Assembly: GCF_000236685.1 (NCBI RefSeq)
Contig: NC_016633.1
Coordinates: 3,477,815 to 3,541,814, forward strand
DNA length: 64,000 nt
Reading direction: 5' to 3'
DNA from: Sphaerochaeta pleomorpha str. Grapes
GTDB taxonomy: Bacteria > Spirochaetota > Spirochaetia > Sphaerochaetales > Sphaerochaetaceae
Below, piece by piece: positions 34,359 to 47,480 of this stretch. The notes under the pieces are model-generated. The model was given only the letters and a program-made list of their open reading frames with translations. It ran no database searches and was not told the DNA's origin. Made by a program: the position numbers and the translations under genes. Every line of letters starts with the position of its first letter. Position 1 is the first letter of the stretch.

Positions 34359-34764
34359 GAGTGCCGTGGTATTGACACTAAGATTTTACCAGCTTTAAAG
34401 CAAGCAATATTTTGTTTTTGGCCTTTATCATCTCCAAATAAATAACACCTCTTTGATTATCGATTACTAGACATGAAGATTTTGTCTGGCTTTATTGCGT
34501 CATGAAGGGTGTCTCCTATTTCTAAAATCAAGGACTCATATCCAATATGTTTCCGTAAAGATATACCTGGAAGAAAATAGGAAAAGCAATGATTTTATTC
34601 TTTTGCCCTTACCTATGACACTATATGTCATTGGGTATGGGTAATACTGTAAAAACCAGATAGGGAAAAAGTTTGACAAAGTCATTTTGGAAGGCTAGTG
34701 TTATGAACAATTAGCAAAGAAATATTTCATATAGCTTTGTTTTGGTAAAGGAAAAATATTAAAA
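34359..34764. other. A+T-rich intergenic region upstream of the cas operon
   Basis: No gene. Holds the inverted repeat ATGACA-CTATA-TGTCAT at 34615-34631 and a possible weak promoter TTGACA (34673-34678), 17 nt, TAGTGT (34696-34701). The base composition shift starts here, consistent with the left border of an acquired block. Confidence 0.4.
34615..34631. promoter_or_regulatory. inverted repeat upstream of cas3, candidate operator
   Basis: ATGACA and TGTCAT separated by CTATA, about 40 bases before the putative cas promoter -35 box. Type I cas operons are often controlled by dedicated regulators, none of which is encoded here. Confidence 0.35.
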
Positions 34765-37008
34765 GTGAAAGCTAGAGTTGATATTGCCCATTGTAAAAAA
34801 GATGAGAACGATCACTGGGATACTCCCCAGAACTTGATAGATCATTTAGAGAATGTGGCAAGAATGGCTTCAGACTTTTCAGCAGAATTTTGTTCTTCCT
34901 CTTGGGGCTATGAGGCCGGTATCAATCACGATACAGGTAAGGGAACAGATGAATGGCAGGAATACATACGTCAGCAAAGTGGTTATGAATCCCCCGACAG
35001 TGACGGTAAAAATTCTCGGCTTGATCATTCTTCACCAAGCTCAAAATTAGTAGAGCAGAAAATCCCAGGTATTTCTGGAAGGATTCTTTCCTATCTTATT
35101 TCAGGTCATCACACGGGTCTTCCTGATTGGGAAGGCTCCCAGAGTTCATTGCATTTTCGGCTGCAGCAAACAAAAATAGATGGGATTCATGCAGAATACA
35201 GGAAATCTGATAATTTGGAGAGCAGGTTGACGCCTCCGTGGCAGTTTCCTACTACTGGCCTTGATATATCTCTTTGGATGCGTATGGTTTTTTCTTCTTT
35301 AGTTGATGCTGATTTTTTAGATACTGAGAGCTATATGGATTCTAGTGCCTCTGCTCTGCGTTCAAGCTATCTTCCTTTTTCTGTCTTAATCAGTATGTTT
35401 GAACAGTATATGCAAAATTTGGTAACCCAAGTAAGCATAAAAAAGGACACTCCAATATATAAGGTTCGGCAACTGGTTCTTAAAGATTGTAAGAATGCAG
35501 CAAAGAAAGCACCAGGGATGTTTTCGTTGACTGTACCTACAGGAGGAGGAAAAACCCTTGCTAGTCTTGCTTTTGCATTAAGTCATATTGAAATTTATGC
35601 AAAGAAAAGAATTATTTATGTTATTCCCTACACAAGTATCATTGAACAGACAGCAAATATTTTCAAACAAATTTTCGGTGAGGACCAAGTTATTGAACAC
35701 CACTCCAACTTTGACATGAGTCTCTCATCCCAAAAGGTTCGCCTTGCTTCTGAAAATTGGGATGCACCGATTATTGTAACAACCAGCGTTCAGTTCCTTG
35801 AATCTTTATTCGCTTCCAAGCCTAGCCGTTGCAGAAAGCTGCATAATATTGCAAATAGTGTGGTTATTTTCGATGAGGTACAGCTACTGCCGATAGAATA
35901 TCTGAAGCCTATTTTAGAAAGTTTGGAATTGATTTGTAGCCATTATAAAACCACAACCCTGTTTTGCACAGCCACACAACCTGCATTTGAAAAACAAGAT
36001 GATTTTCCACAGTTCCCTGGCTTCGCAAAGGGAAAAGTCAGGGAAATCATACAAGATGTCCCATTTCTGTATAAAGCCTTGAGAAGAGTTGAATTACAGA
36101 GTGTAGATATCAATACTATAAGGTCTTTTGAAAGCATCGCTTTTGAACTTACAACATATGAACGAGTTTTGTGTATTGTTTCTGACAGAAAAAGCTGTAG
36201 GGAATTGCATGCCTTGATGCCAGTAGGCACGTATCATCTATCTGCTTTGATGTGCCCTGAGCATAGAAGCGATATCATTGCTGAGATTAAGGAAAAGCTC
36301 AAAGGGAATGGGCCAGTCAGAGTGATAAGCACCCAGCTTATTGAAGCCGGAGTTGACATAGATTTTCCCGTAGTCTATCGATCCATTGCTGGCTTTGATT
36401 CTATTGCTCAGGCAGCAGGGCGTTGTAATAGGGAAGGGGTATTGGAAAAGGGTAAGCTTGTTGTGTTTGTTTCTCCCCGTAGACCTCCTGTTGGTATCCT
36501 CCGAAAAGCTACAGATGCATCGATTAGTTTACTAAATGAAGGATTTTATGATTTTCTGGATCCTTCACTATATAGGAATTATTTCTCGCGTTTGTATTGG
36601 CTTGCGAATTCTTTCGATGCTAAAGGTATCGTTGATTTGCTAGAAATTTCTGACCCTAAGAACCTGGGGATCCAGTTCAGGACAGCATCAGAACAATGCA
36701 AAATTATTGATGATAGTAATATGGTAAGTATTTTTGTTCCTTACTGTAAAGGTTCCAAATTACTCGAAGAACTTACTTCAGGTGGGCCCTATGAAAAAGA
36801 TAACAAAAACTACAGGGCGATTTTTCGAAAATTACAGCGATATTCAGTTTCAATCTACAAAAATGAATATACAAAACTTCTGCGACGAGGCTCACTAGTT
36901 GAAGTGTTTCCTGAAGTTTATGCATTAAATAGTATGGTTGAATATGATTTTCAAAAAGGGCTTTTGGTGGATGAGACTTGCCAAAACCCTGAAACTTTTA
37001 TGGTTTGA
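34765..37008 (+). CDS. cas3: Cas3 helicase-nuclease, type I-C
   Basis: Effector nuclease-helicase that degrades DNA marked by Cascade. 747 residues starting with GTG. The N-terminal HD nuclease shows HLENVARMAS, INHDTGKGTDEWQEY (HD pair near residue 54) and ISGHHTGLPDW. The helicase has Walker A TVPTGGGKTL near 258, Walker B VVIFDEVQLLP near 373, LFCTATQPA (motif III) and motif VI QAAGRCNREG near 555. HD and helicase fused in one chain is normal for I-C. The ribosome site AAAGGA is somewhat far (about 10 bases). First gene of cas3-cas5-cas8c-cas7. Confidence 0.96.
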   Translation: MKARVDIAHCKKDENDHWDTPQNLIDHLENVARMASDFSAEFCSSSWGYEAGINHDTGKGTDEWQEYIRQQSGYESPDSDGKNSRLDHSSPSSKLVEQKIPGISGRILSYLISGHHTGLPDWEGSQSSLHFRLQQTKIDGIHAEYRKSDNLESRLTPPWQFPTTGLDISLWMRMVFSSLVDADFLDTESYMDSSASALRSSYLPFSVLISMFEQYMQNLVTQVSIKKDTPIYKVRQLVLKDCKNAAKKAPGMFSLTVPTGGGKTLASLAFALSHIEIYAKKRIIYVIPYTSIIEQTANIFKQIFGEDQVIEHHSNFDMSLSSQKVRLASENWDAPIIVTTSVQFLESLFASKPSRCRKLHNIANSVVIFDEVQLLPIEYLKPILESLELICSHYKTTTLFCTATQPAFEKQDDFPQFPGFAKGKVREIIQDVPFLYKALRRVELQSVDINTIRSFESIAFELTTYERVLCIVSDRKSCRELHALMPVGTYHLSALMCPEHRSDIIAEIKEKLKGNGPVRVISTQLIEAGVDIDFPVVYRSIAGFDSIAQAAGRCNREGVLEKGKLVVFVSPRRPPVGILRKATDASISLLNEGFYDFLDPSLYRNYFSRLYWLANSFDAKGIVDLLEISDPKNLGIQFRTASEQCKIIDDSNMVSIFVPYCKGSKLLEELTSGGPYEKDNKNYRAIFRKLQRYSVSIYKNEYTKLLRRGSLVEVFPEVYALNSMVEYDFQKGLLVDETCQNPETFMV

Positions 37009-37021
37009 ATGGAGGATACCG

Positions 37022-37726
37022 ATGGACGATTGGATATTGGAAGTGTGGGGTGATTATGCTTGTTTTACTCGTCCTGAAATGAAAGTCGAACGAGTAAGCT
37101 ACGATGTTATAACACCTTCAGCTGCTAGGGCTATTTTTGAGGCGATTTTTTGGAAACCTGCTATCGTTTGGCATATTACCAAGATAGAAGTATTGAATCC
37201 TATAAAATGGGTTTCGGTGCGGAGAAATGAAATCGGGAAAATCGCTTCTATGCCTTCAAAATCCCAAATGGAAGGGACTGTAGAAGAAATGCCGGAGATT
37301 ATCATTGAAGAGAATAGGCAACAACGCGCAAGTATGATTCTATGTGATGTTCATTATAGGATCCATGCTTATTTTGAATATTTACCTCCTGAAGTACGAA
37401 ATACTACTTCCAGTGAATCTGAAGACGATAGGACAGACGAATCGCCTGCAAAGTATGCTGCAATGTTTGATAGAAGAGCTCGGAAGGGACAGTATTTTCA
37501 TCATCCCTATTTAGGGTGTCGAGAGTTCGCTTGTTATTTTAGTCTTATCGATTCTTCAACTTCTAGTCAGGGGAAAAAGCCAATTGCAACAGACCAAGAT
37601 TTAGGTTGGATGCTTTATGATATGGATTTTTCTAAAAATGATTTTCCAACACCTACATTCTTTAAAGCACGAATGGTCCAAGGTTGTATTGATACCGATG
37701 CACGAACTTTGGAGGTCCTCTCATGA
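37022..37726 (+). CDS. cas5c: Cas5c (Cas5d), type I-C pre-crRNA endonuclease and Cascade subunit
   Basis: In type I-C systems Cas5 replaces Cas6: it cuts the repeat RNA 3' of its hairpin and stays on the crRNA 5' handle. 234 residues beginning DDWILEVWGDYACFTRPEMK and followed by SYDVITPSAARAIFEAI, the two strongest Cas5d signatures. Start at 37022 is set by GGAGG 6 bases upstream; upstream ATGs are in the cas3 end. The stop overlaps the cas8c start by ATGA. Confidence 0.95.
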   Translation: MDDWILEVWGDYACFTRPEMKVERVSYDVITPSAARAIFEAIFWKPAIVWHITKIEVLNPIKWVSVRRNEIGKIASMPSKSQMEGTVEEMPEIIIEENRQQRASMILCDVHYRIHAYFEYLPPEVRNTTSSESEDDRTDESPAKYAAMFDRRARKGQYFHHPYLGCREFACYFSLIDSSTSSQGKKPIATDQDLGWMLYDMDFSKNDFPTPTFFKARMVQGCIDTDARTLEVLS

Positions 37727-39480
37727 TACTACAAGCTTTGTCGGAGTATTATTATCGCCTGGATGGAAATGGAAAAGATCTAATCGCTCCATTAGGTTGG
37801 GAAAAAAAGGAAATTCCGTTTATATTTGTCTTGGATGAACAGGGATCTCTTTTAAATGTGGAAGATACAAGGGAGGGGGAAGGCAATAAAAAACTTGCCA
37901 AGACCTTTCTAGTCCCTCAAGGAGTCAAGAAAACATCAGGTGTTGCAGCAAATCTTCTATGGGATACTGTTGGTTATGTCACGGGGTATCTAGATACAAA
38001 AAAAATGTCCGAGACTCAGGCAAAAAAGAAAATCGAAAGACTACCCAAAGAACATCAAGCTTTCATTGAACGCATAGAAACAGAACTGATTGACTCGCCC
38101 AAAAAGAGTGCCTTGATTCATTTCCTACATTCGATAAGTTTGGACGATCTTCGTAGCTTTCCTTGCTGGGAAGAGATTGCAGTGGTTAACCCCAACGTTA
38201 GTTTTCGTTTTTCTCAAGATCTTCAGTTGTACTGCCAGAACAATGAAGTAAAGAAGGCTTTGGCTAAGATCGAACCGAAAAAAAATGATGCAACTCAGCA
38301 GGTATGCTTGGTTTCTGGTGAAAAGGATAGCATCTGTACTTTACATACAGCCATCAAAGGGGTGTATGGTGCCCAGTCTTCTGGTGCAAATATTGTTTCC
38401 TTCAACCTCTCACCTTTCAATTCATATGGCAAAAAACAAGGTGAGAATGCTCCTATTAGTGAAAAAGCAATGTTTACCTATACTACTGCTTTAAATACCT
38501 TGTTAGGAAAAAACTCAAAACAAAGAATGCAGATTGGGGATGCCTCAACAGTGTTTTGGGCAGGTAGGATGAATCAATTTGAAAAAGATTTCCTAAAATT
38601 TTTCGCAGAACCTTCAAAGGATGATCCGAATGCAAATACCCAAAGTATTCGAAGTCTGATGGATTCACCTAAGACTGGTGAATATTATGCTGATTCCTGT
38701 GAAGACCCCTTTTATGTCCTAGGTCTTTCTCCTAATGCGGCACGAATTTCTATCCGGTTTTGGTTTAATGGCATAGTTTCGGATTTTTCTAAAAGAATTA
38801 GGGTATATTTTGAGGATCTTGCAATTGTGAAGCCGCCGAACGAACCGGAATATTATTCAATATGGCGTCTTTTGGTCAATATTGCTGTCCAAGGAAAAAG
38901 TGAAAACATTCCACCGAATATTTCATCTGACTTTATGCGTTCAATACTTATGGGAACTCCCTATCCGCAGAGTCTACTGCAAATGACTTTACGGAGAATA
39001 AAAAATGATGGGGAAAACAGGGTTCCCCCTGTTAGGGCAGCATTGCTTAAAGCAATTTTAAATAGGAATTTACGATTATATCCAAAACAAAATCAAAAGG
39101 AGTTAGATATGTCACTAGATATCGATCAACCTTCGATAGGGTATCAGCTAGGGCGTTTGTTTTCAACACTAACCAAGATTCAGGAAGAAGCAAACCCAGG
39201 GATAAATGCGAGTATCGCTGATAGGTATTACGGGTCGGCGTGTAGCACCCCTGTATCTGTTTTTGGAACATTGATGCGCTTAATGCGACACCACCTGGCG
39301 AAAATCGAGAATCCAGGAAGAAGAATCCAACTTGAACGGCAGATAAATGAGATTGTAAGTCATATTGATGAATTTCCTGCACATCTCAATCTGAATGAAC
39401 AGGGAAGGTTTGCAGTTGGTTATTATCACCAGCGACAAGCTTTTTTCACAAAAAAAGAAACTGAATTGTCTGATAAATAG
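37723..39480 (+). CDS. cas8c: Cas8c (Csd1), type I-C Cascade large subunit
   Basis: PAM-sensing large subunit of the I-C Cascade. 585 residues, usual Csd1 size: N-terminal [13 protein letters not shown], then [19 protein letters not shown], the cysteine/glycine segment ACLVSGE-like [15 protein letters not shown] near residue 192, and [21 protein letters not shown], all typical. The C-terminal half includes the small-subunit region, which in I-C genes can be translated separately from an internal start; an ATG with GGAG upstream occurs at 39109 (MSLDIDQP), a good candidate for an internal Cas11c start. Confidence 0.94.
39109..39480 (+). CDS. possible internally initiated small Cascade subunit (Cas11c) within cas8c
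   Basis: In-frame ATG at 39109 preceded by AAAAGGAGTTAGAT, a strong Shine-Dalgarno inside the cas8c gene, would give a 123-residue helical product ([17 protein letters not shown] to ELSDK). Internal translation of Cas11 from cas8c genes is established for type I-C, and the size agrees. Not a separate gene; listed because the ribosome site is plain. Confidence 0.7.
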
Positions 39481-39490
39481 GAGGTTTGAA

Positions 39491-40366
39491 ATGGAATTGC
39501 AAAAGCGTTATGACTTCATTCTGTTATTTGATGTACGTGATGGTAACCCCAACGGAGACCCTGATGCTGGTAACTTGCCAAGGATTGATCCTGAAACTGG
39601 CAATGGTTTGGTGACAGATGTCTGTATCAAACGGAAAATTCGTAATTATGTAGATATCGTCAAAGGAAACCAACCTCCTTATGAAATTTACATAAAGGAA
39701 AAGGCTATCCTCAACAATTCTAACAAACGAGCTTTTGAAGCCTTGGGAGTCGATCTTGCAAAGGATACCTCAAAACGAAAGGGTGGGGACAAGACAGAGG
39801 AAGCTAAGCTTTGGATGTGTAAGAACTTTTTTGATATCCGGACTTTTGGTGCTGTCATGACCACAAAAATCAATTGCGGTCAAGTTAGAGGACCAGTCCA
39901 ATTCACATTTGCCCGTTCGATTGACCCTGTCATCGCGGCCGAACATAGTATCACAAGGATGGCTGTAACTACAGAAGAAGAAGCTGAAAAACAATCCGGA
40001 GATAACAGAACTATGGGAAGAAAATACACGATTCCCTATGGTCTCTACCAAATTCACGGTTTTATTTCTCCTCATTTAGCTCGTCAGACAGGATTTGATA
40101 CTGATGATTTAGAGCTTCTTTGGGATTCATTGTTAAATATGTTTGACTATGACAGGTCAGCTGCAAGGGGGTTCATGAGTACACAGCGGTTAATTATATT
40201 TGAGCATTCCTCACTACTAGGTGACAAGCCGGCACAAGATTTGTTTGCAAGGGTTTCTGTTGAGCGAAAAACAGATCAGGACAAGCCAGCAAGAAGTTTT
40301 TCTGATTATAAGGTTACCTTGGATGGGCAATTATTGGATAATAAGAAGAACATAATCCCCGTGTAA
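39491..40366 (+). CDS. cas7c: Cas7c (Csd2), type I-C Cascade backbone
   Basis: RAMP-fold protein that forms the helical backbone along crRNA. 291 residues; [23 protein letters not shown]-type N-terminus (residues 7-28) and [13 protein letters not shown] are the Csd2 signature, with [19 protein letters not shown] and [11 protein letters not shown] further on. Start at 39491 set by AGGAGG 7 bases upstream; the frame continues upstream into cas8c. Followed by a strong hairpin with T-run before cas4. Confidence 0.96.
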
Positions 40367-40377
40367 AAATTGTTAGT

Positions 40378-40424
40378 AAATAGAGCCAAACCTAAGGAAT
40401 CTACCCAAGGGTTTGACTCTATTT
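40378..40424 (+). terminator. terminator or attenuator between cas7 and cas4
   Basis: AAATAGAG (40378-40385) pairs with CTCTATTT (40417-40424), then a 2x2 internal loop, then AAACC (40388-40392) with GGTTT (40410-40414); the run of five T at 40422-40426 closes it. It divides interference genes from adaptation genes. Confidence 0.7.
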
Positions 40425-40449
40425 TTGTCAGAATGATAAGGAGTGGATT

Positions 40450-41127
40450 GTGTTTGATGAAAGGGACCTCCTTCCAATATCTTCTATACAGCATCTACTT
40501 TACTGCGAAAGACAATTTGCCTTGATTCATTTGGAAGGCCTTTGGGATGAAAATAGATTCACAGTAGAAGGGGATATTCTTCATGAACGGGTTGATATGA
40601 TTCACCATGAATCAAGGAAACTGTTTTATCAGGAGTACAGTCTTAATATCAGATCCATGGAAATTGGTTTGGTTGGTATTTGTGATCTTGTTGAAGTTTT
40701 ATACACGCCCAATAGAGAAATTGAAACTATCTGTCCGGTTGAGTTCAAAAGGGGAAGCGCAAAACAGACTGATGTCGATTTGGTCCAACTTTGTGCCCAG
40801 GCAATATGTCTTGAGGAAATATTTGCAATAAAGATTCCAAAAGGACAGATATTTTACCTACAAGACCATAGGCGAGTTGATGTGCTTTTTGATAATTGTT
40901 TAATTACTAAAACAAAAGGATTGGTTAGGCGTGCTCAAGAATTGTTAAAGGGTTCGTTTACACCTTTGCCTGTTTATCATCCAAAATTATGTGATGCTTG
41001 TTCTCTGAAGGAGATTTGCTGTCCAAAAATCATAAGCTCGAGGCAACTTGCTGTTTCTGACTATGTTAAATCTCAAATTTCCTTTAATCGAATGGAGTAT
41101 ATAACTGAAGGATTGAGCAATGATTAA
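40450..41127 (+). CDS. cas4: Cas4 nuclease, spacer-acquisition accessory
   Basis: RecB-like exonuclease with a 4Fe-4S cluster that trims prespacers and selects PAM. 225 residues from a GTG start with AAGGAG 7 bases upstream. First cluster cysteine in HLLYCERQFALIHLEG (about residue 17), last three in CDACSLKEICCPK near 185-197. Nuclease residues fall in CPVEFKRGS (E and K of the RecB motif near 97) and QLCAQAICLEE. Overlaps cas1 by 8 bases. Intact. Confidence 0.94.
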   Translation: MFDERDLLPISSIQHLLYCERQFALIHLEGLWDENRFTVEGDILHERVDMIHHESRKLFYQEYSLNIRSMEIGLVGICDLVEVLYTPNREIETICPVEFKRGSAKQTDVDLVQLCAQAICLEEIFAIKIPKGQIFYLQDHRRVDVLFDNCLITKTKGLVRRAQELLKGSFTPLPVYHPKLCDACSLKEICCPKIISSRQLAVSDYVKSQISFNRMEYITEGLSND

Positions 41128-42151
41128 ATTATTGAATACTCTTTATGTCAGTTCTCAAGGGTCTTATCTCCGGAAGGAAGGTGAAACTGTAGTTGTTGAG
41201 TTGGCTACAAAGAAAGTTTTACAAATTCCAATACATACAATCAAGGGGATTGTTTGTTTTGGGAATGTCCTGTGTTCGCCTTTTTTACTTGGCTTTTGCT
41301 CAGAGAAAAATGTTTCGGTTTCTTTCATGACAGAATATGGTAGATTCTTAGCTTCTGTCCGCGGTCCTGTATCTGGAAATGTATTATTACGTCGTCAACA
41401 ATATCGTTTTGCTGATGATAGCGAGATATCGACGATAATCGTTAAGAATTTGGTTAGTGCTAAGATCGTCAATTGTCGTATTGTTCTTAATAGAGCTATG
41501 CGAGATCATGGCACCAAGTTTGATATAAAAAAGATGAAAGAAAGTTCTATAAGCATGGATAGGGCTGTTAGCCAAGTTTTAAGCGCTACTTCAGTGGATG
41601 AAGTAAGAGGATATGAGGGGCTTGCTGCAGCTGAATATTTTTCTGTTTTTAATGATTTGATTGTAAGTCAGAAGGAAGATTTTATCTTTCAGACTAGAAA
41701 CCGAAGGCCACCTTTAGATGAAGTAAATGCTTTACTCTCTTTTATTTATACACTTCTTTCCCATGATGTTCGGTCTGCTCTAGAAACGGTAGGTCTCGAC
41801 CCTTCTGTAGGGTTTTTGCATTGTGATCGTTCTGGGCGATATGGATTGGCCTTAGATATGATGGAAGAGTTCAGGCCTGTTATTGCGGATCGATTGGTTC
41901 TGTCGCTAATTAATAGAGGCCAAGTAAAAAAGAATGGCTTTTATAAAGCAATAAATGGGGCGATTACTATGGATGATGATACAAGGAAACTTGTTCTTGT
42001 AGAGTATCAAAAGAGAAAGCAGGAACAAATTCATCATCCCTTTATAAATGAAGATATCCAGATTGGATTGCTCTTTCATGTTCAAGCTACTTTATTAGCG
42101 AGGTATATTCGGGGTGATATTGATGGTTATCCACCATTTTTCTGGAGGTAA
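41120..42151 (+). CDS. cas1: Cas1 integrase
   Basis: Integrates new spacers at the leader with Cas2. 343 residues, type I-C length: N-terminal LLNTLYVSSQGSYLRKEGE, the metal-site glutamate in EVRGYEGLAAAEYF (near residue 163), the histidine in VGFLHCDRSGRYGLALDMMEEFRP with the acidic pair in LDMMEEFR (about 230-253). All catalytic positions appear intact, so the locus can in principle still acquire spacers. Confidence 0.96.
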   Translation: MIKLLNTLYVSSQGSYLRKEGETVVVELATKKVLQIPIHTIKGIVCFGNVLCSPFLLGFCSEKNVSVSFMTEYGRFLASVRGPVSGNVLLRRQQYRFADDSEISTIIVKNLVSAKIVNCRIVLNRAMRDHGTKFDIKKMKESSISMDRAVSQVLSATSVDEVRGYEGLAAAEYFSVFNDLIVSQKEDFIFQTRNRRPPLDEVNALLSFIYTLLSHDVRSALETVGLDPSVGFLHCDRSGRYGLALDMMEEFRPVIADRLVLSLINRGQVKKNGFYKAINGAITMDDDTRKLVLVEYQKRKQEQIHHPFINEDIQIGLLFHVQATLLARYIRGDIDGYPPFFWR

Positions 42152-42154
42152 ATC

Positions 42155-42445
42155 ATGATGGTTCTTGTCAGTTATGATATTATGGTTTCGAGTGAGGATG
42201 GACCTAAGAGGTTGAGAAGAATTGCAAAAGAATGCACAAATTATGGGCAACGTGTTCAGTTTTCTGTTTTTGAATGCATTGTGGAGCCTGCCCAATGGAT
42301 CTTCTTGAAACATAAGCTTGAGTCAATCATGGATAAAGAGAAGGATAGTTTGCGTTATTACTATCTTGGAGCAAATTGGACGAGAAAGATTGAGCATGTT
42401 GGTGTCAAAGAATCAATAGATTTACAAGGCCCAATTATTGTTTGA
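42155..42445 (+). CDS. cas2: Cas2
   Basis: Small partner of Cas1. 96 residues; MMVLVSYDIMVSSEDGPKRL opens with the Cas2 strand and Asp, YGQRVQFSVFECIV is the conserved second strand, and YYLGANWTRKIEHVG the end. Start 3 bases after cas1 stop. The array leader begins immediately after. Confidence 0.96.
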   Translation: MMVLVSYDIMVSSEDGPKRLRRIAKECTNYGQRVQFSVFECIVEPAQWIFLKHKLESIMDKEKDSLRYYYLGANWTRKIEHVGVKESIDLQGPIIV

Positions 42446-42641: not shown

Positions 42642-45600
42642 GTCGCACCCTTCACGGGTGCGTGAATTGAAACAATGACCATCACCCAATAGGAACAACA
42701 CCAATGACGTCGCACCCTTCACGGGTGCGTGAATTGAAACCTTTACGGGCAATGTGCTTTGATCGATATGCACATAGTCGCACCCTTCACGGGTGCGTGA
42801 ATTGAAACCACGTCCAGTGCTTGGAGTGATTACAAAGGTACGTGTCGCACCCTTCACGGGTGCGTGAATTGAAACCTCAGCCGTTATGACCGAAGATGTT
42901 TCACACGAAGTCGCACCCTTCACGGGTGCGTGAATTGAAACAACCACCAAGCGTACCAATCATTAAAATAACTAGTCGCACCCTTCACGGGTGCGTGAAT
43001 TGAAACAACCACCAAGCGTACCAATCATTAAAATAACTAGTCGCACCCTTCACGGGTGCGTGAATTGAAACCGCGCATTGCACCCGGTGAACTGGACAAC
43101 GAAGAAGTCGCACCCTTCACGGGTGCGTGAATTGAAACCACATATTCGTAAATGAGGCACTGCTCAGGACCGTCGCACCCTTCACGGGTGCGTGAATTGA
43201 AACACAACTACCAGGTGTAGCTATAACGCTCAAATACTGTCGCACCCTTCACGGGTGCGTGAATTGAAACATCGATTACGAGGGGTCTGTCACTCTCAAA
43301 AATGAAGTCGCACCCTTCACGGGTGCGTGAATTGAAACCACCTTTTACCCTGTCGGTAACCGCACCAACTCCAAGTCGCACCCTTCACGGGTGCGTGAAT
43401 TGAAACCCGTTGATCAGATAGAAGAAATGTTTTCCCGCAAGTCGCACCCTTCACGGGTGCGTGAATTGAAACATCTCCACAGAATCGAAAGGTTGAGGTA
43501 TCTCGTGTCGCACCCTTCACGGGTGCGTGAATTGAAACCGCTCGGTGACATTGTGTTGCAGGGTGATGATATCGTCGCACCCTTCACGGGTGCGTGAATT
43601 GAAACACCATGTGGGCGCAGGATATCGCTTTTACGACTAGTCGCACCCTTCACGGGTGCGTGAATTGAAACTGTGCTCTATTAAGGACAAGGAGTTAACA
43701 AATGGTCGCACCCTTCACGGGTGCGTGAATTGAAACATTAGAAACAATGAATCCGATAGCGGCGGCAGTGTCGCACCCTTCACGGGTGCGTGAATTGAAA
43801 CAACGGATTGAGCATATATCTGCATCCAATGAGTTGTCGCACCCTTCACGGGTGCGTGAATTGAAACCAGTAGTCGTCAATGCTATCATAGTCATATGCG
43901 TGTCGCACCCTTCACGGGTGCGTGAATTGAAACCCCGATTGGAACATATCTAAGTTGGCAGACGTTCCGTCGCACCCTTCACGGGTGCGTGAATTGAAAC
44001 GCATCAAGAGAGATAAAGACAGAGCACGACCGCCTGGTCGCACCCTTCACGGGTGCGTGAATTGAAACTCGTACCAACCGGAAGTGTAGTGAGCGTCGTA
44101 TGGTCGCACCCTTCACGGGTGCGTGAATTGAAACCATCCATAATCAACAAGGTTTCCGAGATTCTAAGTCGCACCCTTCACGGGTGCGTGAATTGAAACG
44201 ATTTATCAGATGGATTGGAAATGCAGACTGATTGTCGCACCCTTCACGGGTGCGTGAATTGAAACATGGGCATCCTATGATGTCGGTGGTTTGATAGAGT
44301 CGCACCCTTCACGGGTGCGTGAATTGAAACTAAAGTACCCACCGCCACCCCCGGCAACCTTGCTGTCGCACCCTTCACGGGTGCGTGAATTGAAACCTGC
44401 TACTACAGCGGCTATTAGATATCAACATGCGTCGCACCCTTCACGGGTGCGTGAATTGAAACACACAATCCTATGTGATTAAGCTAAGCAATTTTGCAGT
44501 CGCACCCTTCACGGGTGCGTGAATTGAAACCAAGTGTTGGGAATTTTTTAGCATTCAAGGTATGTCGCACCCTTCACGGGTGCGTGAATTGAAACTCCAC
44601 ACTATCACTCAACTGGAAGGTGAACCATGAGTCGCACCCTTCACGGGTGCGTGAATTGAAACGCATTAATGAGCAAAGGGCTAGGCAAGAAATTGTCGCA
44701 CCCTTCACGGGTGCGTGAATTGAAACCAGCCGGATATCACCAGCGAAGCAGAGACTGTTGGTCGCACCCTTCACGGGTGCGTGAATTGAAACATATACAC
44801 CGCAAAAATTAAATGGGATTATTTTTGTGTCGCACCCTTCACGGGTGCGTGAATTGAAACTAGCTATGTAAGATAAGTGGTATAGTGCGAAGCGTCGCAC
44901 CCTTCACGGGTGCGTGAATTGAAACAATGGGTACCATGCCACCAAGCCTTGCGAGACGTGATGTCGCACCCTTCACGGGTGCGTGAATTGAAACAAACTG
45001 GTGGATCGGATAGGCGCTGGGCTGAATAGTCGCACCCTTCACGGGTGCGTGAATTGAAACCCTGTATCCTTGGTGTTTACAGACCAGATGAAAGTCGCAC
45101 CCTTCACGGGTGCGTGAATTGAAACTTGTTATTAACAGGCATATCATACCCTCCGTTGGTCGCACCCTTCACGGGTGCGTGAATTGAAACAAACAAGTTG
45201 TGGATGAGATACCAGGAGTAGATACGTCGCACCCTTCACGGGTGCGTGAATTGAAACGGTAGCAACCCCAGAAATGAAGCTACTCTACGATAGTCGCACC
45301 CTTCACGGGTGCGTAAATTGAAACCCCACATTGATATTTCGGGGGTTTGCGAGTGGAAAGTCGCACCCTTCACGGGTGCGTGAATTGAAACCAGTCGAAC
45401 AAGATACCGGCGTTGGAACTTGAACGTTGCACCCTTCACGGGTGCGTGAATTGAAACCCATTGTAGCAACGCAATCATCCCCGACACGCATGTCGCACCC
45501 TTCACAGGTGCGTGAATTGAAACCTGTACAGCCGGAGACAGCTGTTCCTGCTCACGTCGCACCCTTCACGGGTGCGTGAATTGAAACTTGCTCAGACTTG

Positions 45601-45838
45601 AGAGCATCTTGTAACTTCTGGTCGCACCCTTCACGGGTGCGTGAATTGAAACCGATGGCTATGACGGTAGAAGAAGAGTTGTATGTCGCACCCTTCACGG
45701 GTGCGTGAATTGAAACCCACTTGACACTCGATTGTGCGCACTATATAGGGTCGCACCCTTCACGGGTGCGTGAATTGAAACAAGAACCAGATCGAAGCAG
45801 CAAAGGTTTTGGTCAACGTCGCACCCTTCACGGGTGCG
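42642..45838 (+). CRISPR. type I-C CRISPR array: 48 full repeats, 48 spacers and a truncated 49th repeat
   Basis: The 32-bp repeat begins GTCGCACCC, has loop TTCAC, then GGGTGCGTG and ends AATTGAAAC; CGCACCC/GGGTGCG form the Cas5c-recognised hairpin. I counted repeat starts from 42642 to 45818; spacers are 32-37 bp. Spacers 5 (42942-42974) and 6 (43007-43039) are identical. Variant repeats occur only near the right end: repeat 41 at 45293 (GTAAATTG), 43 at 45426 (GTTGC), 44 at 45492 (CACAGG); repeat 49 at 45818 stops after 21 bases. Leader next to cas2 and decay at the right show polarity left (new) to right (old). Spacer 47 matches a promoter at 47192. Confidence 0.98.
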
Positions 45839-45844
45839 GGGTGG

Positions 45845-45860
45845 GTGCGTGGGGGCATGG
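45845..45860. repeat. 16-bp direct repeat, left copy, flanking the IS
   Basis: GTGCGTGGGGGCATGG, identical to 47165-47180. Reads as a target-site duplication of the IS inserted in a degenerate last CRISPR repeat. Confidence 0.65.
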
Positions 45861-47164
45861 CGCGAGCAGTAGTATTAACTGTCCACTAAAAAAAGGACGA
45901 GATGCAGAAAAAATAGAATCCCATGGGAACCGTGCTATCTTTGGTTTAACCACAAATCAAAAAACACACGGAGACACCATGGGACGTAGGAATCTTACAC
46001 TGGGAAAGCACTGCAGGGGAAGCCATTTCTCTTGGGGCGAGAGGCTTAAGCTGCAATACTACTTCGCAGGTAGCAACGGATACAGAAAAGAGCGAAGCCC
46101 TACGGTACTGGGAATGATTTTCCAGAAGAGCGCCAAAACGATAGGCAGGGAACTGCAACGGGGTATGGTGGAGCATGTGCTCGGAGAAATCCCGTTTTCC
46201 CGGGCGGAGTACAATGCGGACCATGCCCAGATCGATGCAGAGGAGAAGATGAAGTACAAGGGCCCGTTGCCCAAGTCGGGCAGGCACTACGCACTGGTGC
46301 AAAGGATATCACCCCTGATCCTGAAAGACAAATACAGCCCCTATGCCGTACTGAAGACCCTTGACAAGGATGAGGAGTGGCCGGAGGGGCTGAGAATCTG
46401 CGAGAAGACCCTGTACAACTGGATAGAAGCCGGGGACATCCCTGGTGTCACAATCGAGAACCTGCCGAGGAGAGGCAAGGTCAAGCACAACAAGGGCCAT
46501 GGGGGCAAGAGAAAGCACTCCAACGCGGAGTTCGCCGCCCGGTCCATAGAGCACCGCCCGAGGGAAATCCTCAGGCGCCTGGTGGCTGGTCACTGGGAGG
46601 GGGACACTGTCTACAGCAGAAAGAACGGATCAAAGGAATGCCTGCTGACGCTTGTAGAGCGGAGTACCAGGATGGAGCTGATACTGAAGATACCGGACAG
46701 GACCGCTAAGTCCGTGAAGGAAGCATTCGACAAGTTGGAGAGGCAGCTCGGAAGCCGCCTGTTCCGGTTGATATTCCTCTCGGTCACGTTTGACAACGGC
46801 AGTGAGTTCTCCGATGTGCTGGGGCTGGAGAAGTCGATACTTACCAAGGGAACCAGGACTGTATTGTATTGTATTTCGCCCATCCCTATTGTTCCTGTGA
46901 AAGAGGCACTAACGAGAACCACAACGGCATCATCAGAAGATTCCTTCCCAAAGGAACGGACTTCGCCTTCATCAAGGCTAAGGAAGTAAAGGAGATCCAG
47001 GACTGGATGAACACCTATCCAAGGAGAATCCTCAACGGTTCTACTCCCTTGCAATCCTTCAAGGAAGCATTCGGACTGATGGATCTTAACATCAAACTGC
47101 TGGAGGCATGCTGATGAAGAAAACCAAGAAAGAATTAAAGGGACATTTCTCTTTACAAGAAACC
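45861..47164 (+). mobile_element. IS30-family insertion sequence in the CRISPR trailer
   Basis: 1304 bp carrying a single IS30-type transposase gene (broken). The ends are bounded by identical 16-bp repeats, and the terminal inverted repeats are imperfect but symmetric: AACTGTCC starts 16 bases inside the left end and its counterpart (AAATGTCC on the other strand) 16 bases inside the right end, with a shared GTA at positions 9-11. Boundaries are inferred from this symmetry. Many IS30 members make only 2-3 bp duplications, so the 16-bp repeat is unusual. Confidence 0.75.
45979..47114 (+). pseudogene. IS30-family transposase, frameshifted
   Basis: DDE integrase-like transposase. Starts MGRRNLTLGKH at 45979 behind GGAG, with the N-terminal helix-turn-helix (SPTVLGMIFQKSAKTIGRELQ), HWEGDTVYS (first Asp) and VTFDNGSEFSD (second Asp). 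The frame then leaves the family after ILTKGTRTVLY and ends at 46989. The missing part, YFAHPYCSCERGTNENHNG with the catalytic Glu, to LEAC at 47114, is in the +2 frame. GTATT is tandemly present three times at 46861-46875; two copies would restore one open frame of about 377 residues. Catalytic triad is split, so the copy should be inactive. Confidence 0.85.
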
Positions 47165-47180
47165 GTGCGTGGGGGCATGG
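47165..47180. repeat. 16-bp direct repeat, right copy, flanking the IS
   Basis: Identical to 45845-45860. It is followed directly by ATTGAAAC (47181-47188), the tail of a CRISPR repeat, so the array once continued to here. Confidence 0.65.
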
Positions 47181-47188
47181 ATTGAAAC
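47181..47188 (+). CRISPR. remnant of the terminal CRISPR repeat beyond the IS
   Basis: ATTGAAAC is the 3' end of the array repeat; it stands immediately before the sequence TACTTGACACTCG that is shared with spacer 47. Marks the original distal end of the array. Confidence 0.7.
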
Positions 47189-47191
47189 TAC

Positions 47192-47220
47192 TTGACACTC
47201 GATTGTGCGCACTATATAGT
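47192..47220 (+). promoter_or_regulatory. strong promoter of the zinc-ribbon gene, duplicated as spacer 47
   Basis: TTGACA (47192-47197), 17 nt, TATAGT (47215-47220): perfect -35, ideal spacing, 5/6 of the -10. The sequence ACTTGACA to TATATAG here is identical over 30 bases to spacer 47 (45719-45748). Confidence 0.8.
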
Positions 47221-47258: not shown

Positions 47259-47432
47259 ATGTCCAAAGCACATAGAGGAAGTGGCATCCGTACCGAAGTC
47301 AACCATGGACGTGGTGTTTGCCCTGTTTGTAAACGCACTGCAGTCAAGGTATTGTATGAAGCCACCGTTGAAGGCGAAAAGGCTAAAGTTTGTAAGTCTT
47401 GTAACGCCAGTCTCAAGGCTGCTGCTAAATAA
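47259..47432 (+). CDS. 57-residue basic protein with two CxxC pairs (zinc-ribbon-like)
   Basis: Starts MSKAHRGSGIR at 47259, with AAGGAG 8-9 bases upstream and the strong promoter at 47192. Contains CPVCKRTAVKVLYEATV and, 19 residues later, VCKSCNASLKAAAK: two CxxC pairs that could bind one zinc, plus a basic tail, the look of a small ribosome- or nucleic-acid-associated protein. I do not recognise a named family. Transcribed alone and closed by a strong terminator. Only its promoter is entangled with the CRISPR trailer; the codon usage looks native to the chromosome. Confidence 0.75.
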   Translation: MSKAHRGSGIRTEVNHGRGVCPVCKRTAVKVLYEATVEGEKAKVCKSCNASLKAAAK

Positions 47433-47451: not shown

Positions 47452-47480
47452 AAGACTGTCTTTGCAGGCAGTCTTTTTTT
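47452..47480 (+). terminator. intrinsic terminator after the zinc-ribbon gene
   Basis: AAGACTGTC, loop TTTGCA, GGCAGTCTT (9 bp with one G-U), followed by T-run to 47480. It is only about 33 bases before murC, so some read-through may feed murC. Confidence 0.88.

Follow-up and report, generated by a model that had tools for sequence, protein, structure and literature searches.

Spacer 47 of a type I-C CRISPR array in Sphaerochaeta pleomorpha is a copy of the promoter that abuts the array

One spacer of a type I-C CRISPR array, spacer 47, is nearly identical to the promoter of the gene that lies beside the array. This raises the question of which of the two sequences is the copy, how the copy came to be a spacer, and whether the crRNA derived from it acts on the neighbouring gene. 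Positions (Table 1) are those of the window, i.e. the whole stretch of 64,000 nucleotides that was analysed; the genome searched is a single contig of 3.59 Mb.

Table 1. Coordinates of the features at the CRISPR locus and its flanks.
Feature	Position	Strand	Remarks
Second zinc-ribbon promoter with the beginning of the 5' UTR, decayed	34359..34415	+	Follows the outer-membrane-type gene directly, at the left end of the module
Type I-C cas operon (cas3, cas5c, cas8c, cas7c, cas4, cas1, cas2)	34765..42445	+	Pfam and NCBIfam matches, e.g. TIGR01863 Cas8c, TIGR03640 Cas1c
CRISPR array, repeats 1-48 and 48 spacers	42642..45817	+	Repeats of 32 bp, perfect or nearly so, GTGAATTGAAAC type; leader on the cas2 side
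Repeat 47	45685..45716	+	Perfect, GA type
Spacer 47	45717..45749	+	33 nt, 31 of them shared with the promoter beside the array
Repeat 48	45750..45781	+	Perfect, GA type
Spacer 48	45782..45817	+	Protospacer in the phage terminase small-subunit gene of five relatives, each with a TTC PAM
Terminal repeat 49, 5' part, degenerate	45818..45860	+	Ends in the left target-site duplication (16 bp) of the IS
IS30-like element	45861..47164	+	1304 bp; transposase ORF broken into two frames
Target-site duplication on the right of the IS (47165-47180), followed by the 3' end of repeat 49 (47181-47188, ATTGAAAC, GG type)	47165..47188	+	Stands where the PAM would be
Zinc-ribbon gene promoter	47189..47220	+	-35 TTGACA 47192-47197; -10 TATAGT 47215-47220; boxes and UTR conserved in relatives
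Gene for the 57-aa CPVC...CKSC zinc-ribbon protein	47259..47432	+	Conserved in Spirochaetia
Terminator-like hairpin of the zinc-ribbon gene	47452..47475	+	

Aligned without gaps to positions 47188-47220, spacer 47 matches at 31 of 33 positions, the mismatches falling at spacer positions 2 (C/T) and 33 (G/T). The 30 identical bases reported for spacer and flank by an earlier reading of the sequence, hereafter the first-pass annotation, were confirmed: the 30-mer ACTTGACACTCGATTGTGCGCACTATATAG lies at 45719-45748, within the spacer, and at 47190-47219, starting 1 nt past the last repeat remnant. These are the only two exact copies in the genome, and no third site was found anywhere in its 3.59 Mb when 3 mismatches were allowed. 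Since the match has a within-window BLAST E-value of 1.3e-12, chance is excluded. When the array spacers were compared with the rest of the genome and the window, no convincing self-match other than that of spacer 47 was found. An origin of the 30-mer in a phage or plasmid was rejected, the sequence being absent from the genome_contigs and viral_contigs collections; 27 spacers are without a phage match.

The flanking copy is, as the first-pass annotation had proposed, a strong TTGACA/TATAGT promoter: it scores 11/12 against the sigma-70 consensus, the top score in the region. The 57-residue zinc-ribbon gene downstream and its own terminator also stood up, the latter as a terminator-like hairpin, while the spacing given for the gene had to be corrected to 38 bases between the -10 box and the ATG. 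The protein has no Pfam or NCBIfam family above cut-off; homologues are present in 32 of the 40 relatives searched, and the gene adjoins a murC-like gene in each relative fetched. That a random spacer would hardly contain such a promoter is borne out by controls, in that the boxes of spacer 47 reach at least 10/12 and an equally good pair on the same strand occurs in only 7 of 2675 control spacers (about 0.3%).

The order dinB, ddl, murE, outer-membrane-type gene, zinc ribbon, murC-like gene, yicC, cmk is found in all 14 relatives fetched (dinB is only partial in one of them, at a contig start), and in none of these 14 does a cas module separate the outer-membrane-type gene from the zinc ribbon. 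In twelve of them both boxes (-35 TTGACA, -10 TATAGT) and a large part of the 5' UTR are conserved, the linker being variable; the two others, more distant, have TATATT as the -10 box. Relatives without an array at this locus thus have a promoter and 5' UTR of the same kind, which is the check that the first-pass annotation had suggested. Because promoter and UTR are orthologous in relatives that lack an array at this site, the promoter is ancestral, the module was inserted and spacer 47 is the copy, in agreement with the earlier claim that the spacer was taken from the promoter; an origin of the promoter from the spacer was rejected on the same grounds. Spacer 47 therefore has a significant and unique match on its own chromosome, outside the array, to a source older than itself. 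Since even the closest relative differs from this genome at 4 bases of the 30-mer, the source was an allele of the same species or one very near to it.

The inserted module has the gene order cas3-cas5c-cas8c-cas7c-cas4-cas1-cas2 and the Csd1/Cas8c signature of type I-C. The cas module, the array and a later IS30-like element came by insertion to lie between the outer-membrane-type gene and the zinc-ribbon promoter. The second promoter copy at the left end of the module aligns locally to the intact promoter as TTGACACT..GATT..CT.TA.AG plus CAA..TA..TTGT, with p about 0.0015-0.002 in dinucleotide shuffles, and 0.3% of other 60-nt windows reach its alignment score. This lends moderate support to a duplication of the promoter by the insertion, with decay of the copy on the left. 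An integrative element with the promoter as core of its attachment site was also considered and dropped, the relatives compared showing no insertion between both genes.

At the right end, the insertion sequence cuts the last repeat off from its own 3' end. Its boundaries were set by comparison with two related sequences at other places of the genome, one a full copy (71% identity) and one a fragment (94% identity); it has an rve domain match, below the curated cut-off, and a frame break near a GTATTGTATTGTATT run, and its target is the palindromic CRISPR repeat. The 16-bp direct repeat GTGCGTGGGGGCATGG flanks it. The IS30-type element IS1630 makes target duplications of 16 to 26 bp (PMC3317919), and the present element resembles it in its long direct duplication, here inside a palindromic repeat; the likeness concerns only the later insertion into repeat 49, not spacer 47. 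The "repeat remnant" that the first-pass annotation saw before the promoter is indeed repeat sequence, but it is the 3' end of repeat 49, split by this element. With the element and one duplication taken out, the terminal repeat reads GTCGCACCCTTCACGGGTGCG...CATGGATTGAAAC, followed directly by TACTTGACACTCGATTGTGCGCACTATATAGTCAAACGG.

The earlier description of the array itself was amended to 48 spacers, 47 of them distinct; spacers 5 (42942-42974) and 6 (43007-43039) are identical, one repeat-spacer unit having been duplicated in tandem. Spacer lengths range from 32 to 37 with modes of 33-34, so that spacer 47 has an ordinary length, and it is flanked by perfect repeats. Repeats 47 and 48 are of the GTGAATT (GA) type, whereas repeat 49 is of the GG type and carries an insertion. 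The terminal repeat (47175-47188) has the GGATTGAAAC form of the relatives and all other repeats (42642-45781) have GAATTGAAAC, which indicates that the repeat itself changed and that the change spread through acquisitions.

Spacers 14 and 48 define the PAM. For spacer 48, protospacers were found in five relatives, each time in a terminase small-subunit gene (L203-L207; PF03592, phrog_51); for spacer 14 there is one, in a gene of a single relative. Since TTC stands 5' of all six protospacers, TTC is the PAM and the orientation of the array is confirmed. In the relatives G018, G012 and G002, about 60 kb separate the terminase gene from the zinc-ribbon gene; no copy of it was detected in the genome that carries the array, and it may belong to a conserved prophage or gene-transfer agent. 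At the promoter copy the PAM position (47185-47187) reads AAA, contributed by the repeat tail, in line with the first-pass observation that TTC is missing there. Because AAA replaces TTC, crRNA 47 should, by the type I rule, neither target nor repress the promoter. Further PAM-plus-seed sites for crRNA 47 are at control level genome-wide and none stands out.

How, then, was the copy made? I consider it probable, with modest confidence, that spacer 47 is an inert self-capture, by Cas1-Cas2, of DNA abutting its own array; the first-pass annotation had also put forward self-acquisition at the array flank. Acquisition at the leader end is favoured because repeats 47 and 48 are GA against GG in repeat 49, because the junctions differ and because the spacer length is normal. 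Spacer 47 and the promoter are on the same strand, adjacent, and in a repeat register that agrees within 1 nt; a random self-spacer would land no more than 2 nt from the array edge in that orientation with p ~7e-7. Position, orientation and register therefore argue for this very site as the source. In addition, the 30-mer of spacer 47 shows 0/30 changes while the left promoter copy has decayed by about 25%, which fits acquisition after insertion of the module.

The sequence of events would be as follows. The type I-C module would have inserted before the zinc-ribbon promoter, leaving the terminal repeat in contact with it. Later, Cas1-Cas2 (with Cas4) would have taken about 33 bp of the chromosome abutting the terminal repeat, probably in response to a DNA break or a nick at the array, and the captured piece would have been integrated at the leader end as an ordinary spacer, newer spacers then moving it towards the trailer. 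It would have been kept because its sole genomic match lacks a TTC PAM, so that crRNA 47 would neither cut nor repress. I infer three elements of this scheme: that the piece was captured at this site once the module was in place, that a break occurred at the edge of the array, and that crRNA 47 is inert.

A precedent exists in Escherichia coli, whose CRISPR locus is a hotspot of self-acquisition (PMC12539621, PMC10011333) and stays one when relocated (PMC12539621). As there, chromosomal DNA near an active array would have been preferentially captured; however, the E. coli hotspot is a kilobase-scale signal in laboratory populations with a type I-E system, whereas spacer 47 is a single, natural, fixed event at an exact repeat boundary in type I-C. 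Two further points stand against capture from the array edge. Canonical I-C acquisition expects a TTC PAM, and there is none on either side of the current site; and both mismatches are at the spacer ends (positions 2 and 33), which this mechanism leaves unexplained.

The missing PAM would be accounted for if spacer 47 had instead been acquired, with a normal TTC PAM, from an empty-site allele, either in a module-free conspecific or in the same chromosome before the module arrived; the spacer would have survived since insertion of the module destroyed the PAM in this chromosome. One clade (L044-L047) does have TTC in the exact PAM register, as TTC-GT/GC-ACTTGACA, the base before ACTTGACA varies among relatives, and the CC of spacer 47 against T at the current junction is what a different source allele would give. 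By contrast, the closest relative has GCC at that place and seven others have GCC, ACC, ACG or ACT, and the decayed left copy of this genome has no TTC there. The final G of the spacer moreover conflicts with the invariant T of the TATAGT boxes, and adjacency to the array is explained through survivorship only. This origin is conceivable, though unlikely.

The first-pass annotation had also offered an unequal exchange, and recombination or replication slippage could have duplicated the terminal repeat and promoter as a unit into the array. Register, orientation and immediate neighbourhood agree with this, and the identity of spacers 5 and 6 shows that unit duplication has happened in this array. 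A unit copied in this way should resemble its parent in repeat type and in its junctions, but repeat 47 is perfect and GA where repeat 49 is GG with an insertion, the left junctions differ by one indel and one substitution (CC against T), and the right junction has an extra, untemplated G; an arbitrary slippage product would also seldom be 33 nt long, i.e. of spacer length, and joined exactly to base 1 of a repeat. An exchange is therefore not borne out, and I regard it as improbable.

More improbable again is a homing-like integration, in which the promoter was cleaved by, or recombined with, an earlier array that already contained this spacer, after which repair fused the array to its target and the PAM was lost. 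Adjacency, register, PAM loss and the coincidence of the insertion boundary with the repeat end would all follow, and a duplicated promoter at both module ends would be expected. The occupied allele lacks the PAM; the PAM position in the empty sites of relatives varies and is TTC in one clade. Yet a crossover within the 30-mer should leave CC before it, not T; the donor array would have to carry two copies of the spacer; and the left copy has decayed, whereas spacer 47 has not. With a chance that I put just as low or slightly lower, spacer 47 might guard the locus of the module: it would match the empty allele, where a TTC PAM is possible, so that incoming chromosomal DNA of module-free kin, through which homologous replacement could eliminate the module, would be cleaved, whereas the repeat tail would shield the occupied site. 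Were this true, the locus would act in the manner of a homing element or natural drive.

The least probable reading, and a very remote one, is that crRNA 47 brings Cascade to the promoter and so acts as a repressor of the zinc-ribbon gene, in the manner of CreA on creT: near-full complementarity to the strong promoter of a neighbour gene invites it, but the promoter copy has no TTC PAM, a full match with a PAM would bring Cas3 cleavage, and the gene is conserved and without a toxin feature. CreTA (PMC8501985, PMC9458426) is similar in that a crRNA-like sequence by cas genes matches the promoter of a small neighbour gene. CreA, however, has degenerate repeats and its target promoter retains a TTC PAM, cleavage being avoided by a partial seed match (PMC8501985), whereas spacer 47 has perfect repeats, a 31/33 match in place of a partial seed, no functional PAM at 47185-47187 and no toxin; the comparison with CreTA made in the first-pass annotation thus does not appear to hold. 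RNA targeting was likewise rejected, since the match lies upstream of the expected start site and the crRNA has the sense of the gene, so that it could not pair with the mRNA. The practical lesson is that a promoter-matching spacer such as this one should not be taken for a regulator.

Spacer 47 resembles the known self-targeting, or self-derived, spacers (reviewed in PMC6990116), with which it shares a match on its own chromosome, an apparently complete array and tolerance through blocked interference. It differs from them in that its match touches the terminal repeat of the array, in the same register and orientation, and that a repeat takes the place of the PAM. On the preferred reading, capture from the array edge, it would be a dated natural example of a source of self DNA for the adaptation machinery, namely the first bases past its own array. 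If it reflects breaks at the array, spacers from the trailer flank would be natural markers of that process; if it came from the empty allele, a CRISPR-Cas locus could protect the place that it occupies in the chromosome.

Such spacers were sought in a control set of 84 other distinct type I-C arrays with 2739 spacers, 58 of the arrays having at least 100 bp of trailer. None of the 84 has a spacer that matches the 150 bp beyond either array end, three apparent matches being set aside as artefacts (a scaffold gap in L110, a contig end in L135, a continuing array in L139). If capture from the array edge exists as a mechanism, it would therefore be rare or its products would usually be lost. In the relative G007, another I-C array (L076:1615-1760) ends about 100 bp upstream of an era-like housekeeping gene; none of its spacers matches its flank. 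Two arrays of G006 (L077 and L078) end in the same trailer, GAAAACTCATTTCGAAATCCC..., perhaps because of a common mobile element downstream.
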